From assembly GCA_945888515.1 (NCBI GenBank), contig CAMDAD010000018.1, positions 1 to 61,250 of the forward strand: a DNA stretch of 61,250 nt, written 5' to 3'. Below the pieces are notes generated by a model. It saw only the letters and a list, made by a program, of their open reading frames with translations, made no database searches and was not told where the DNA came from. This DNA is from Akkermansia muciniphila. GTDB lineage: Bacteria; Verrucomicrobiota; Verrucomicrobiia; Verrucomicrobiales; Akkermansiaceae. Position numbers and translations under genes: made by a program. Positions 34,560-40,261 of the stretch are shown piece after piece (the first letter of the stretch is position 1; each line of letters begins with the position of its first letter).

Positions 34560-35335
34560 GGTTTGGTTGGTCTGATGGTTTCGTTCAGCAGGATCTCAAC
34601 CGTGCTTTCCAGCAAAAACTGCAACTCGGCTACATTGTTGCGCTCGGTGCCTGTTTTGATTCCTTTCTCATCCCAATGCGCAGCCTGGGAAAAATCGAAA
34701 CCTGTGACGAAAGGCGGCCCACCGCGTTGCTGCGGCACCACAGCTTTGCGCAACTTGAGATTGCGGTCCACCAAGATAAGCGATGTGTCATACTTCCATC
34801 GCCCCTCCTCGAGGTGCGGGAGCATCCCTAGCTTGCACTTGTCTTTGAGATACTTGTGCAACACGGCTGGCTCTGTCGTAACGAACCACCACTGCGATAG
34901 CTTCGCCCCCTGACGCTGGGCTTCCTGTTTCAGCACCTCAGCCGCCTGTTCGGGTGGTCCGGGATCGATGATCGTACTGATGAAAACCACGTCTTCGCGC
35001 GATTCGTATTTTTTCGCCATCTCCTGCATCACGCGAACGGCGAGCGCACATGTATCCGGTTGAGTAACGCTGATCGAGTTCAAGACCCAGACTTTGCCCT
35101 GCAGCTCCTCCAGCCCAATACGCACTCCATCTTGACGCAGAATCGGTAAGTTATAACGCAACTCTCCCACGTATGAAGGACGCAATTCCTTGTTCGCATT
35201 GCTTGCGTAGCGCTCGTAGGCCGCAAAAATGAACACCCCGCCGAGTAGGGCGAAACAAACAAGAATCCATGCCGTGCGTCGTAATTTTTTTTCATCACGC
35301 ACCGCCGGTTCCATTGTTGCTTCGTGTCTTGCCAT
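34556..35335 (-). CDS. Sco1/SenC-like protein lacking the first active-site cysteine
   Basis: A 259-residue Sco-like protein with one N-terminal membrane helix (TAWILVCFALLGGVFIFAA). The thioredoxin fold is recognisable from GKVWVLNSISV, FISTIIDPGPPEQA and the late KYDTSLILVDRN. The expected CxxxC site reads QPDTC, so the first cysteine is glutamine, and the distal histidine is threonine. It probably cannot bind copper like a standard Sco. The start at MARHEAT (35335) avoids a 9-residue upstream extension; a start at MEPAV is also possible. It heads the run Sco-like, Sco-like, DUF420, hisD and is divergent from metH. Confidence 0.8.
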   Translation of the reverse strand: MARHEATMEPAVRDEKKLRRTAWILVCFALLGGVFIFAAYERYASNANKELRPSYVGELRYNLPILRQDGVRIGLEELQGKVWVLNSISVTQPDTCALAVRVMQEMAKKYESREDVVFISTIIDPGPPEQAAEVLKQEAQRQGAKLSQWWFVTTEPAVLHKYLKDKCKLGMLPHLEEGRWKYDTSLILVDRNLKLRKAVVPQQRGGPPFVTGFDFSQAAHWDEKGIKTGTERNNVAELQFLLESTVEILLNETIRPTKP

Positions 35336-35410
35336 CGAGACGCAGAAAATACCCAGATCCACTTACAACGCAAGCCCCCAACCGAAAAAACTTCGGTTCC
35401 GAGCTTGAAA

Positions 35411-35441
35411 TCAATCGCATCATCAAATCGCGATGCGTTGA
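35411..35441 (+). promoter_or_regulatory. hairpin in the metH leader
   Basis: TCAATCGCAT pairs with ATGCGTTGA (one bulge) around 12 bases, about 40 bases before the homocysteine-domain ATG. It lacks the conserved cores of the SAM, SAH or cobalamin riboswitches I know, so its meaning is open. A smaller stem (ACCG/CGGT, 35377-35393) lies upstream. Confidence 0.35.
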
Positions 35442-35482
35442 TATCTACTTGCCAAGTGACCACTCATCTCGTAACTTCGCGC

Positions 35483-36577
35483 ATGCCTCCATCCGATCTG
35501 ACCGCTGAGCTTTCCGCCGCCTTGAAGGAACGTATTCTCGTTCTCGATGGGGCCATGGGCACGACGATCCGCACCTATGGCCTCAACGAGGAGCAAGCGC
35601 GCGGCCAGCGTTTTGCCGATTGCAAAAAAGACATCCTCAATAATGGCGACATCCTCACACTGACGAATCCGCAGGTCATCGGCGATATCCACAAGCGTTT
35701 TTACGAGGCAGGTTCGGACATCGTGGAGACCAATAACTTTTCCGCCACTTCGATCTCTCAGTCGGAGTTTTTTGTCGATGACCCGAGAGAGCATGGCGGT
35801 CGCAAAGATCCTGAATTTTTTCAAGGCATCATCGAGAGCCCATTTCTCCGCGATCTCGCATGGGAGATCAATGTCGAGTCCGCTCGACTCGCTCGGCACT
35901 GGGCGGATCAAATCGGCAGCGATACCGGCGTGAAGCGCTACGTCGCCGGCGCCATCGGTCCCTTGACTGTTTCTCTAACGAATTCGCCCGATGCGAACGA
36001 TCCCGGCTTCCGCGTGATCACCTTCGATCAAGTGCTCGTCGCCTACAAAGAGCAGGTGCGCGCACTCATCGAAGGAGGCTCTGACCTGCTGATGGTAGAA
36101 ACGATCTTTGACTCGCTCAATGCCAAAGCCGCACTGGTCGCGATTCAGGACGTGTTTGCGGAAGACAATGTTCGCTTACCCATCATTGTCTCTGCAGCAG
36201 TGGGTCGTGGCGGTGAAACCATGATCTCGGCGCAAACATCGGAAGCCTTGTGGAATGCCGTCGCTCATGCTAATCCGCTCGCCATCGGACTGAATTGTTC
36301 GCTTGGGCCCGACTTGATGAAACCTTTTCTCGAGGAGCTCTCACAGGCTGCCACGACGCACATTTCCTGCTATCCGAACGCTGGATTGCCCAATCCGCTC
36401 TCGCCCACAGGCTTCGATATGACGCCCGATGACATGAACCGCTGGCTCGCAGAGTTTGCCAACGCCGGCCTGCTGAACCTCGCAGGTGGTTGCTGCGGCA
36501 ATACCCCTGAACACGTAGCAGCGATCGCTCAAGCCGTGCGCCACGCCGTCCCGCGCGAAGTCCCCACCCTTTCCTGA
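35483..36577 (+). CDS. methionine synthase, homocysteine-binding subunit (split MetH)
   Basis: A 364-residue homocysteine S-methyltransferase domain corresponding to the N-terminal module of MetH. It has the barrel opening LVLDGAMGTTIRTYGL and the three zinc-binding cysteines in GLNCSLGP and GGCCGNTP. The start at MPPSDLT is chosen because the upstream open frame (from 35324) overlaps the divergent promoter region and has no similarity. The rest of the enzyme is encoded 12 bases downstream, so the two chains must assemble to make cobalamin-dependent methionine synthase. Two-chain MetH is known from other bacteria. Confidence 0.93.
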   Translation: MPPSDLTAELSAALKERILVLDGAMGTTIRTYGLNEEQARGQRFADCKKDILNNGDILTLTNPQVIGDIHKRFYEAGSDIVETNNFSATSISQSEFFVDDPREHGGRKDPEFFQGIIESPFLRDLAWEINVESARLARHWADQIGSDTGVKRYVAGAIGPLTVSLTNSPDANDPGFRVITFDQVLVAYKEQVRALIEGGSDLLMVETIFDSLNAKAALVAIQDVFAEDNVRLPIIVSAAVGRGGETMISAQTSEALWNAVAHANPLAIGLNCSLGPDLMKPFLEELSQAATTHISCYPNAGLPNPLSPTGFDMTPDDMNRWLAEFANAGLLNLAGGCCGNTPEHVAAIAQAVRHAVPREVPTLS

Positions 36578-36589
36578 TTGTCCTACTCC

Positions 36590-39500
36590 ATGAAAACCAT
36601 TCCACGCCTCCTGCGCCTCTCGGGTTCCCAACCTTACAATCACACGCCGGACAAAAATTTCCTGATGATAGGTGAGCGCACCAACGTCGCCGGCTCACCG
36701 CAGTTTGCCAAACTCATCCGTGCGGGAAAACTCGAGGATGCGTTAGAGGTCGCGCGTCAACAAGTCGAGAACGGCGCGAACGTGATCGACATCTGTTTCG
36801 ACGATGGCCTCATCGACGGCAAGGCGATGATGGCGCGCTATCTGCAGCTTTTACAAAGCGAGCCAGACATCGCCAAGGTGCCGATCATGGTCGATTCTTC
36901 GAAATGGGAAATCCTCGAAGAAGGCATCAAATACTTACAAGGCAAGGGCATCGTCAATTCAATCTCGCTCAAGGAGGGCGAGGAAACCTTCAAGAAATGC
37001 GCGCGCCACATCAAGAAATTCGGAGCCGCCGTGGTGGTGATGGCATTCGATGAAAAAGGACAGGCCGCCACCTACGAAGAAAAAATACGCATCTGCGAGC
37101 GCGCGTATCGCATCCTTGCCGATGAAGTGGATTTCCCGCCGCAAGACATCATCTTTGATCCCAATATCCTCACCGTTGCCACTGGCATCGAGGAGCACAA
37201 CAACTACGCGCTCGATTTCATCAACGCCACGCGCTGGATCAAGGAAAACCTGCCCTACGCGAAAGTCAGCGGCGGTGTTTCTAACATATCTTTCTCCTTC
37301 CGCGGTAACAACGTCGTGCGCGAGGCCATGCACTCCGTTTTCCTCTACCACGCCTGCAAAGCGGGCATGGATATGGGCATCGTCAATGCCGGCATGCTCG
37401 AGGTCTATGACCAGATCGCGCCAGAGTTGTTAGAGAAAGTCGAGGACGTGATTCTCAACCGACGCCCAGACGCCACCGAACGGCTGCTCGACTTAGCAGA
37501 GTCCTACAAAAACGTTACAGGAAAAAAAATCGAAGAAGACCTCAGCTGGCGGAATGAACCCGTCGAGAAGCGTCTGGAATACGCGCTGCTCAAGGGCATC
37601 GACCGCTTCATCGAGGAAGACACCGAGGCCGCCCGCGTCAAATACGGCATTCCGCTGAAAGTCATCGAGGGTCCGCTGATGGACGGCATGGGCGTGGTAG
37701 GCGATCTTTTCGGCGCCGGAAAAATGTTTCTCCCACAAGTGGTAAAGTCTGCCCGCGTGATGAAAAAATCCGTCGCTTGGCTTGAGCCCTTCATGGAGCT
37801 GGAAAAAGTCGCAAAGGCCGAGACACTGCGTTTCCTTAGCGAACGCGACGCCGGACTCACGCCCGCGCCTGTGACCTTGTGTGAGGGATTTTCCTACATC
37901 CCCTACCCTGATCTCAGTGATGAAGAGCGCCGCGTTGAATTTGAATTTGCTGCCATGCTCGCCGGAAATCTCGCCACCACCGCCGCGCAATACGAAGCTA
38001 AATTCGGTATCATCCTCGATCGCAACAACGCCCAGGAACTCTCACCGCTTTACAACGAATCGCGCGAGTCCCGCCAGAAATGGAGCGTCGCCACCTTGGA
38101 ACCCGCCGGTGCCTTCATCGAGTGGCTCTACTTCCAAAAAATCAAATCTCTCCCCCCCGAGAGCCTGATCGTCTTCAACGCCGGCGGCCAAGGCAGCGGG
38201 AAGACCACGGCCACTGCTGGATTAAGTTCAGCTGATGGTGCCGCATTGATCATGGATGGCACTTTGCAAAATCTTGAACGCTCGATGGCTCACATCGAAT
38301 GTGCTTTGCAACAGAGGCATTTTGTCAACGTGCGCTACGTCTTTAGTCCCTGGAAAAAAGCGTTGGAAAACGTCGTTCGCCGCGCATGCACAGAGGGTGG
38401 TCGCATCGTCCCCTTGCGCCGGTCCGCGAAAGGACACTTCCAAGCACCGCGAACTTTTCTGAACGCATGCGAGCGCTTTGCCGATCAGGAAATGTTTGTC
38501 GCATGCGTCATCGACAACAGCATTTTCCATCTTCCCCAAATGCGCGACCCCTCATGGTTGCGTGAACAGCTTTATCCGTCCATCGAATTTCTCCTTGAAT
38601 CCTCCGCTAATTATGTCAAACTCAACTTACAAAGTTATGAGCACCTCATCGACCAAAAAGTCAGAGACATCTTCTTCGACGAGCCAACTTCTGCGGGAGA
38701 AAGCGCGCTTGATCAACGAGAAGTCGCTGGCACTGCTGCGTCAGGCGGGCGAGACGAAGGAAGCGCAAAAAGCGCCCACCAAGCCAGTCAACTAGCCCCC
38801 ACCTCCGCCGGAAAATTCCTCATCGCCACCGTCAAGGGCGACGTTCACGACATCGGCAAAAACATCGTCGGTGTGGTTCTTTCCTGCAACGGCTTCGAAG
38901 TCACCGACATGGGCGTGATGGTCTCTTGCGACAAAATCCTCGCCAAAGCCAAAGAAATCGGTGCCGACATCATCGGGCTCTCCGGACTGATCACGCCCTC
39001 ACTCGATGAAATGGTGCACGTCGCCAAAGAAATGGAAAAGCTCGGCATGTCCACGCCGCTGCTCATCGGCGGAGCTACCACCTCTGCCGCGCACACCGCG
39101 ATTAAGATCGCCCCGCACTACTCAGGTCCCGTGTTGCACGTGCTCGATGCCTCGCGCTCGGTCCCCGTCACCACCTCCCTGCTCTCCGCCGATCAGCGCG
39201 AAGGATTCGCCCAAGCCAATCGCACCAAACAAGAAAGCATCCGCATTGACTTCGAAAAAGGCACTAACAAAAAGCCAACCATTTCGTTAGAAAAAGCCCG
39301 AGCAAACAAATTCACCTGCGACTGGGAAACCTATCAACCTGCCGTGCCGGAATTTGTGGGCACCCGCGTCATCGAAAACCAATCGCTGCGCGAGCTCGCG
39401 AACTACATCGACTGGACGCCATTTTTCCACGCCTGGGAAATCCGCGGCGTCTGGCAGCCCGAAACACAGACGCTCAAAACCCAGAATGCCGAGGGTGCCA

Positions 39501-40261
39501 AGGAGGCGCAAAAAATTCACGCCGAGGCCCTCGCCCTCATTGAGCGCATCATTGCCGAAAAACGTTTCACCGCCCGTGGCATCTACGGCTTCTTCCCTGC
39601 GAATGCCGATGGCGATGACGTCATCGTCTGGACCGATGACACCCACACCACCGAACGCTGCCGCCTTCACACCTTGCGTCAACAGATCGACAAATCCAGC
39701 GGTAAGCCCAATGTTGCGCTGGCAGATTTTGTAATTCCTAAAAAAAATGCATGCACAGACTACGTCGGAGGCTTCGTTCTGGGGATCCATGGTGCGGACG
39801 AATTTGCGAATGAGCTCGAAAAACAAAACGACCCTTACTCCGCCATTATGGTCAAGGCCGTGGCCGACCGTTTCGCCGAGGCCTTTGCCGAGCTTCTCCA
39901 CCACCGCGCCCGGGTCGCCTGGGGTTACGAGCGACCTAACGAATTCAATCATAACGAACTCATCAAAGAACTCTACCGAGGGATCCGCCCGGCCCCTGGC
40001 TACCCCGCCCAGCCCGACCACACGGAAAAACCCATTCTTTTCGATCTGCTCGATGCCACCAGCAAAACCGGAGTCAGCCTCACCGAATCGAACGCCATGC
40101 ACCCGGCCTCAGCGGTAAGCGGGATTTACTTTTCACATCCCGAGAGCCATTATTTCGCCCTCAGTGATCTGCAACGCGATCAAATCGAGGACTACGCAAA
40201 ACGCAAAGGCATAACGATCGAGGAAGCGGAACGTTGGCTCGGTCCCTGGCTCGGATATTGA
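36590..40261 (+). CDS. metH: methionine synthase, folate/cobalamin/activation subunit with inserted zeta-toxin-like kinase domain
   Basis: This 1223-residue chain has the MetH order: methyl-tetrahydrofolate domain ([10 protein letters not shown], residues about 20-290), cobalamin cap (about 310-404, [20 protein letters not shown]), cobalamin domain (741-890) with ligand H753 in DVHDIG, and the SAM-dependent activation domain (about 910-1223, [26 protein letters not shown]). Between cap and cobalamin domains, where E. coli has about 12 residues, lie about 335 residues. They resemble a zeta-toxin-type kinase: ARELSP-like segment AQELSPLY near 483, Walker A GGQGSGKT (532-539), D556 in MDGT, and VIDNS (640-644). 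Residues 697-740 are a low-complexity linker whose DNA looks coding in another frame. ATG 36590 is preferred over TTG 36578. Frame is open throughout, so a functional fusion is possible but unproven. Confidence 0.9.

Follow-up and report, generated by a model that had tools for sequence, protein, structure and literature searches.

The zeta1 toxin of Neisseria gonorrhoeae (ng-zeta1) has two sequence blocks exchanged relative to other zeta toxins, such that its catalytic Asp56 precedes the P-loop Lys115 (PMC5923241). In the published full-length structure of cobalamin-dependent methionine synthase (MetH), the linker between the Cap and the cobalamin-binding domain (Linker III, or Cap:Cob) has 7 residues (PMC10567725). 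Here, we describe a locus of Akkermansia muciniphila where the two seem to meet. The window, i.e., the whole stretch of 61,250 nucleotides that was analysed (assembly GCA_945888515.1, contig CAMDAD010000018.1), encodes on its forward strand a MetH chain (36590..40261) whose Cap:Cob linker contains an insert of about 330 residues (37814..38803). An original prediction made from the letters of the DNA alone had placed a zeta-toxin-like kinase at this point. We found that the insert is a recurring and recombining feature across the phylum Verrucomicrobiota and, what is new here, that the part following its P-loop is a swapped cassette, exchanged between species while the surrounding enzyme remains nearly unchanged. 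Among the titles and abstract starts of the open-licence literature searched, none described a B12-dependent MetH with a toxin-family kinase among its own domains, nor any MetH of such a build, in line with what had been presumed.

A predicted zeta1-type kinase in the Cap:B12 linker

The frame at 36578-40261 is open over 1227 codons, i.e., 1223 residues when started at the ATG at 36590. The insert is flanked by the Cap domain (B12-binding_2, PF02607, residues 330-403, 37565..37786, 77.9 bits) and by the B12-binding domain (PF02310, residues 746-839, 38813..39094, 69.6 bits). The distance between the SARVM and KGDVHDIG motifs is 362 residues, against 34-61 in 40 genomes lacking the insert, and these short linkers, together with alignments, delimit it. 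The Pfam match to Zeta_toxin (PF06414) lies between both B12 domains. It is marginal: for a cut-off of 22.3 bits, the whole protein scores 22.7 and the insert with a few flanking residues 28.1. The predicted position at the Cap/B12-domain junction was correct, as were the open frame, the intact flanks and the places given for the motifs GGQGSGKT (38183..38206), MDGT (38252..38263), RRACTEGG (from 38378), VIDNS (38507..38521) and DVHDIG (38840, intact in the B12-binding domain).

An AlphaFold model of the insert, built with 33 relatives from the 41 loci of the genome scan described below (those with both MetH anchors and the search motif), has a predicted local distance difference test (pLDDT) of 84.3 and a predicted template modelling score (pTM) of 0.81. 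When compared with solved structures, it aligns with the gonococcal zeta1 kinase domain (6eph_B) over 260 residues (Z 26.6, root-mean-square deviation 2.4, 18% identity; Foldseek E 4.8e-11), and the next matches, streptococcal zeta toxins and AvrRxo1, have Z scores of 10-11 (best 11.0). The insert shares the rewired order of zeta1, with the catalytic segment ahead of the P-loop. Hence, the bulk of the first 120 residues belongs to the kinase and is not a mere spacer. This N-module (37880..38167), defined by invariant or nearly invariant columns and including the conserved LDRNNAQEL, aligns with zeta1 from model residue 23. By its fold, the insert is a complete zeta-type kinase domain of the rewired zeta1 kind. 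It had been anticipated that a whole zeta-type protein, rather than a loop, would be found, and this agrees with the fold of the part preceding the P-loop; the anticipated zeta-type layout held for the zeta1 kind of fold but not for the streptococcal arrangement. The variable linker ahead of the B12 domain (38681..38803) was modelled with low confidence (pLDDT below 50 at model residues 290-315). A larger model of 912 residues has a pTM of 0.50 and an unreliable relative placement of the domains, so we make no claim on contacts between the kinase and the Cap.

The P-loop GGQGSGKT, with its catalytic Lys, is present in the insert of the window and at 40 of the 41 scan loci. The P-loop and many residues of the N-module are invariant across 34 aligned copies, save for one (G001) that has a broken P-loop and changes of its own; the Asp of MDGT and the Asn of VIDNS are invariant in these 34 copies. 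The catalytic base is a different matter. In 41 of 42 MetH copies, Asn occupies the position of the zeta1 Asp56 (in D-R-N, 38018..38026, by pairwise alignment) and an Asp comes two residues before it, although a local shift is possible in this alignment of sequences. The only copy with Asp at this position is G001, the one with the broken P-loop, whereas Asp is found in all eight aligned relatives from outside MetH, a hand-picked part of those found. In the pairwise alignment, the equivalents of the zeta1 Arg175 and Arg181 (the latter within GGRIVPL, 38396..38416) are kept; those of Lys59 and Asn75, which contact UNAM in zeta1, are not. The P-loop, MDGT and GR.VPL are retained despite the Asn at the base position. 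Another residue may serve as the base, or the domain may bind ATP without performing the zeta1 chemistry. The proposed phosphorylation of UDP-activated sugars loses its support because of the Asn at the Asp56 position and of the two reported sugar contacts that appear not to be kept.

Distribution across Verrucomicrobiota

Among 57 genomes, comprising that of the window and its relatives, 12 have the insert in MetH, 11 of them nearly whole and one (G041) without the part with the P-loop. The MetH activation domain is found in 53 of the 57: 40 have a short linker, 12 the insert, and one (G038) could not be read. We then scanned 84,980 species genomes with two exact peptide patterns, a procedure that misses diverged copies and favours intact P-loops. 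It revealed 41 loci, all in Verrucomicrobiota by record title and all in a MetH frame, including in Verrucomicrobium sp. BvORR034 (L076), Prosthecobacter, Pedosphaera and Opitutaceae. At 36 of them, a single frame includes the two MetH anchors (motifs of the Cap and of the B12 domain), and the other five have at least one anchor in frames that all run to an end of the DNA. In the order of the window (386 genomes, one per species), the insert is nearly whole in 34 genomes and present as an N-terminal remnant in 17, remnants being detected only to an E value of 0.001. Of the nearly whole copies, 29 were read in the MetH frame and five (G440, G450, G533, G570, G723) were placed by frame lengths equal to those of scan loci; none of the 34 has an internal stop codon. 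A sample of 387 genomes of the phylum had six copies within MetH, one of them partial. Because 12 of 57 genomes and all 41 scan loci have the insert at this very point of MetH, it is neither a chance event nor an assembly fault, an explanation that the scan and the order sample refute. The original prediction had suggested looking for the insert in MetH of other Verrucomicrobiota, and it is clearly not a one-off.

Exchange of the kinase C-half

The tree of the MetH flanks and that of the insert are discordant. The trees were built only from rows with the two MetH anchors (sets of 98 and 42 rows), a selection enriched in insert-bearing genomes, which is why the minimum of nine state changes on the tree should not be taken as a rate. 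We then tabulated identities for 276 pairs among 24 P-loop-bearing genomes, drawn from 39 chosen by hand out of the 42 insert-bearing rows. The upstream MetH flank has about 90% or more DNA identity in 13 pairs. Twelve of these pairs drop to only 47-60% identity downstream of the Walker A motif and recover to 88-97% in the B12 domain. In the remaining pair (G051/G441), the C-half is 100% identical between flanks at 96% and 95%. Fourfold degenerate sites tell the same story: G478 and G480 agree at 14 of 44 sites in the C-half versus 118 of 139 upstream and 47 of 51 downstream, and G051 and G441 agree at 105 of 106 versus 128 of 148 and 44 of 54. Sliding windows for several pairs show that identity falls on or close to the codons of Walker A, the left breakpoint region, and recovers just before the B12 domain, delimiting a cassette (38210..38758) made of the kinase C-half and part of the linker. 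In other pairs, e.g., G497/G538, the N-module is divergent as well. Approximately unbiased (AU) tests on the flank, the N-half and the C-half (42 rows, LG+G4, fast search) reject for each the trees of the other two, with p <= 2.8e-4 in the six comparisons. The distances in the flank and insert trees are correlated over all 861 pairs (Spearman 0.59), which indicates that exchange takes place mostly among relatives.

Two simpler causes were considered and discarded. A frameshift behind the divergent C-halves would leave the DNA similar, but global DNA identities in four swapped pairs are 0.49, 0.62, 0.54 and 0.56, against 0.47, 0.53, 0.50 and 0.51 after shuffling. Vertical descent with one fast rate is ruled out by the contrast between G051/G441 and G478/G480, which have similar flank distances, and by the AU tests.

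As far as a crude list of long frames shows, the genes beside metH differ among G441, G478 and G480. In the latter two (L196/L197), metH lies beside different genes though its flanks are 94-97% identical and prfA and hisD only 84% and 80%, as if the whole gene moved.

Constraint and in-frame loss

The C-half has dN/dS values of 0.09-0.25 in eight chosen closer pairs, and the constraint is weaker than in upstream MetH in seven of them, the exception being G500/G476. Sixteen of the 17 N-terminal remnants were read as sequence within MetH. They range from copies in which the P-loop half is missing down to about 50 residues and are always in frame. The SRESRQ.WS motif, strongly conserved elsewhere, has drifted in three of the longer remnants, which lost the kinase core (G428, G528, G518). 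G001 keeps its frame with a destroyed P-loop (GGQESKKT). The low dN/dS with a conserved active site, and the drift in copies without a core, argue that intact copies have a selected function. Selection thus seems to maintain the kinase, given its retained P-loop and low dN/dS, and yet it looks dispensable, given the remnants and G001. Since most relatives have no insert, it is not generally required for the function of MetH. A module that is occasionally useful and under selection to differ fits these observations best.

Relatives outside methionine synthase

Relatives outside MetH are mostly in phage or polyvalent proteins. One terminates a stretch of 3109 residues in a G441 protein with the LPD37, MuF_C and Kinase-PolyVal domains; others are in an LPD3 protein (G321), an InPase protein (G105) and proteins of G015, G027 and G453. 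In phage MW202577, a relative ends an 878-residue protein annotated as thymidylate kinase (E 1e-8). The best viral structure matches are two large proteins of uncultured Caudovirales, followed by a cedratvirus protein. Two pattern scans of viral contigs for close copies returned no relative, the insert gave only weak matches in plasmids (E of 0.1 or more), no phage record matched the polyvalent kinase of G441, and PHROGs had no family for the inserts of the window and of L065. A known defence family was also set aside: no PADLOC model fits the insert of the window. Separately, L168 (G446) is a stand-alone frame of 368 residues, outside MetH, with the same N-module and kinase build.

The split metH gene and its neighbours

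The chain of the window spans the pterin, Cap, insert, B12-binding and activation domains. Besides the two B12 domains, Pfam recognised Pterin_bind and the activation domain (Met_synt_B12, PF02965, residues 937-1211, 39386..40210, 353.6 bits). The chain scores 1156.6 bits with the NCBIfam model TIGR02082 (cut-off 1010.85) and 1398.7 with the longer PRK09490, under its cut-off of 1497, the homocysteine part being in another frame. This homocysteine-binding domain (S-methyl_trans, PF02574, 256.6 bits) has its own upstream frame on the same strand (35324..36577), and a single in-frame TGA (36575-36577) separates it from the pterin domain, the next ATG being at 36590. MetH is split in this way in eight of ten genomes of the genus, i.e., in all those with the upstream part read, including that of the window. 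It is also split in about half of the remaining family and forms a single chain in the other families of the order that were read. We found no MetE (PF01717) in the genome of the window, which is 97.5% complete, and MetH is therefore probably the sole methionine synthase there. The intact motifs of MetH and this absence of MetE suggest that it is active. No antitoxin family is among the Pfam matches of the five upstream and two downstream neighbours, a survey of long frames in which one of the seven had no match.

Other in-frame guests of housekeeping enzymes

A second type of guest, of 228-294 residues, lies inside the MetH activation domain at eight loci (L015, L017, L020, L021, L037, L040, L043 and L051, in genomes G002, G004, G007, G008, G028, G031, G034 and G042). 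It has a PNHVH motif, and Pfam recognises Y1_Tnp in the copy of G002; we take it to be a REP-associated tyrosine transposase (RAYT). At this site, G001 retains a leftover of 30 residues, and the MetH of the window has no such guest. Y1_Tnp domains are also found in frame inside leucyl-tRNA synthetase (L191 in G008, host assigned by likeness; L192 in G004, by Pfam) and inside the large chain of carbamoyl-phosphate synthase (L193 in G004, by Pfam; L194 in G007, by likeness). In L193 and L194, the domain is preceded by the peptide KTGILPVSADGR, presumably a translated REP element. Across ten genomes of the genus, eight of 70 Y1_Tnp matches are in frames longer than 900 residues. The titles and abstracts of the literature searched contain no plain description of such guests in housekeeping enzymes. 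Finally, the MetH of L091 has, besides the zeta-type kinase, a phosphoribosyltransferase domain (PRTase, PF00156, 35.3 bits) within a 347-residue insert in the linker between the cobalamin and activation domains, a site that in L090 is occupied by a transposase of the PNHVH type.

Discussion

The account that we favour, to which we give a little less than an even chance, is that of an old insertion of a zeta1-type kinase that serves as an accessory conflict module carried by an essential MetH. A kinase of this type, from the polyvalent proteins of phages or other mobile elements, would have entered the Cap:Cob linker long ago in Verrucomicrobiota, and the presence of a second polyvalent-type domain, the PRTase, in another linker of the MetH of L091 speaks for such an origin, as do the relatives in polyvalent and phage proteins and the viral structure matches. 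The kinase would act in defence or in its own interest and use MetH as an essential, always-made carrier. It would bind ATP through its P-loop and either modify a different substrate from that of zeta1 or work as a nucleotide switch. Its C-half would be selected to differ, perhaps as a binding site for inhibitors or partners, and under such selection new C-halves would spread through homologous recombination over the interval that runs from the conserved codons of Walker A to the conserved B12 domain. Once the pressure is gone, the kinase would be lost, and this by in-frame deletion because the frame of MetH must stay open. The analysis shows the fold of the insert, where it sits, how widely it occurs, its constraint, its loss in frame and the exchange of cassettes; we infer the origin in mobile-element proteins, with its direction of transfer, the binding of ATP and the antagonistic role.

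Several observations weigh against this account. With the residue at the position of the catalytic base changed, the insert might be something other than a kinase. No partner or immunity gene was recognised adjoining metH, and searches of 34 members with the PADLOC models returned a single weak match, to Cas11e (E 0.0091). Most genomes in the scan, phylum and order samples have no insert. The 13 pairs with similar flanks are not independent, as 11 of them fall within two quartets of similar MetH chains with differing C-halves, although in the second quartet the C-halves of G538 and G564 are 85% alike for a flank of 89%. Furthermore, we compared prfA and hisD in nine chosen pairs, and in the five quartet pairs among them the MetH flanks are 91-97% identical when prfA is at 77-84% and hisD at 78-80%. 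Since the flanks exceed the identity of these genes, metH itself seems to recombine in the quartets, and part of the decoupling may stem from the flanks. The pair G000/G009 is free of this problem, with prfA at 89%, hisD at 83%, flanks at 91% and 93%, and a C-half at 47%.

The original prediction had offered two roles, a gate of the enzyme or a selfish passenger, and neither fits well in its pure form. A gate would sense ATP or another nucleotide and control the uncovering of cobalamin by the Cap, thereby tuning methionine synthesis. The site of insertion is suggestive in this respect, because Linker III accompanies the movement between the Cap-on and Cap-off states (PMC10567725), and the invariance of the P-loop and N-module outside G001 would also be expected. 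Yet, 40 of the 53 genomes with an activation domain manage with a short linker and only 12 have the insert, wholly or partly; the repeated in-frame loss and the swapping of cassettes fit poorly with a fixed gate, and the gating of a single enzyme gives no reason for exchanging half-domains between near-identical enzymes. We therefore regard such a gate as unlikely. The gain and loss in frame, the remnants, the decay of the P-loop in G001 and the other guests of the same enzyme (RAYT, PRTase) could instead reveal a selfish or neutral passenger, tolerated in frame and spreading by recombination among metH genes. This seems rather doubtful to us, since the active site is conserved over deeply split genomes, the C-half has low dN/dS, the motif of the N-module has drifted in G428, G528 and G518, which lost the core, and the insert has no nuclease or recombinase domain that Pfam recognises.

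A metabolic fusion would have the kinase act on a small molecule of cobalamin, folate or sulfur metabolism, with a C-half that varies with the substrate. Its partner is indeed a metabolic enzyme, and the fold belongs to a broad group of small-molecule kinases, with adenylate kinase, chloramphenicol phosphotransferase and others appearing lower among the structure matches. However, the relatives are mostly in conflict proteins, swaps between near-identical enzymes are unexpected for a metabolic step, and the kinase is frequently absent or lost, which makes this idea quite improbable. As for an artefact of assembly or annotation, many carriers are metagenome-assembled genomes, but the insert is in many separate assemblies, among which those of Verrucomicrobium sp. 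BvORR034 and the one-contig 8.2-Mb genome G441, with no internal stop in the 34 nearly whole copies, and the chance of such an error is negligible.

That near-identical enzymes exchange their C-halves is a sign of selection for difference within a housekeeping enzyme, a pattern familiar at toxin, immunity and surface-antigen loci. Going further than the account of a conflict module, the MetH of Verrucomicrobiota could carry a polymorphic conflict enzyme, a kinase of which one half is exchanged between species like an immune or toxin allele, in a bait-and-guard design. We consider this possible but doubtful; were it true, an attack on the module, or its loss, would also affect methionine synthesis. 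The locus also provides a natural test of how MetH tolerates a body of 330 residues in the linker adjoining its moving Cap. More generally, it suggests that conflict modules can hide in metabolic enzymes, out of sight of gene-by-gene annotation: NCBIfam labels the protein of the window methionine synthase, and no model covers the insert.

Comparison with known systems

The closest described protein is the zeta1 toxin (6EPG, 6EPH, 6EPI; PMC5923241), with which the insert shares the fold over 260 residues, the rewired order, the P-loop Lys and the equivalents of Arg175 and Arg181. It differs by being embedded in MetH, by having no room for the OB-fold tail, by the absence of a recognised epsilon antitoxin gene alongside and, as far as the alignments indicate, by the Asn in place of Asp56 and the unmatched Lys59 and Asn75. 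All the other domains and motifs are shared with cobalamin-dependent MetH, with the homocysteine domain in a frame of its own; instead of the short Linker III of the published structure (PMC10567725), there are about 330 residues with a kinase fold. The polyvalent proteins have members of the same family, and that of G441 with LPD37, MuF_C and Kinase-PolyVal has the same build of N-module and kinase. These proteins are described as effectors of phages and conjugative elements, whereas the carrier of the insert is a housekeeping enzyme of the host. Polymorphic toxins have a conserved front part and an exchanged C-terminal part, and the insert resembles them in this. In contrast to them, the swapped part is half of a kinase with more of the enzyme downstream, and no adjacent immunity gene was seen. 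Inteins and Rickettsia palindromic elements are other in-frame guests of essential genes. In contrast to inteins and other selfish inserts, the insert of MetH has no splicing or nuclease domain recognised by Pfam, and some relatives keep in-frame remnants of it, which is what one would expect of a domain retained in the protein.
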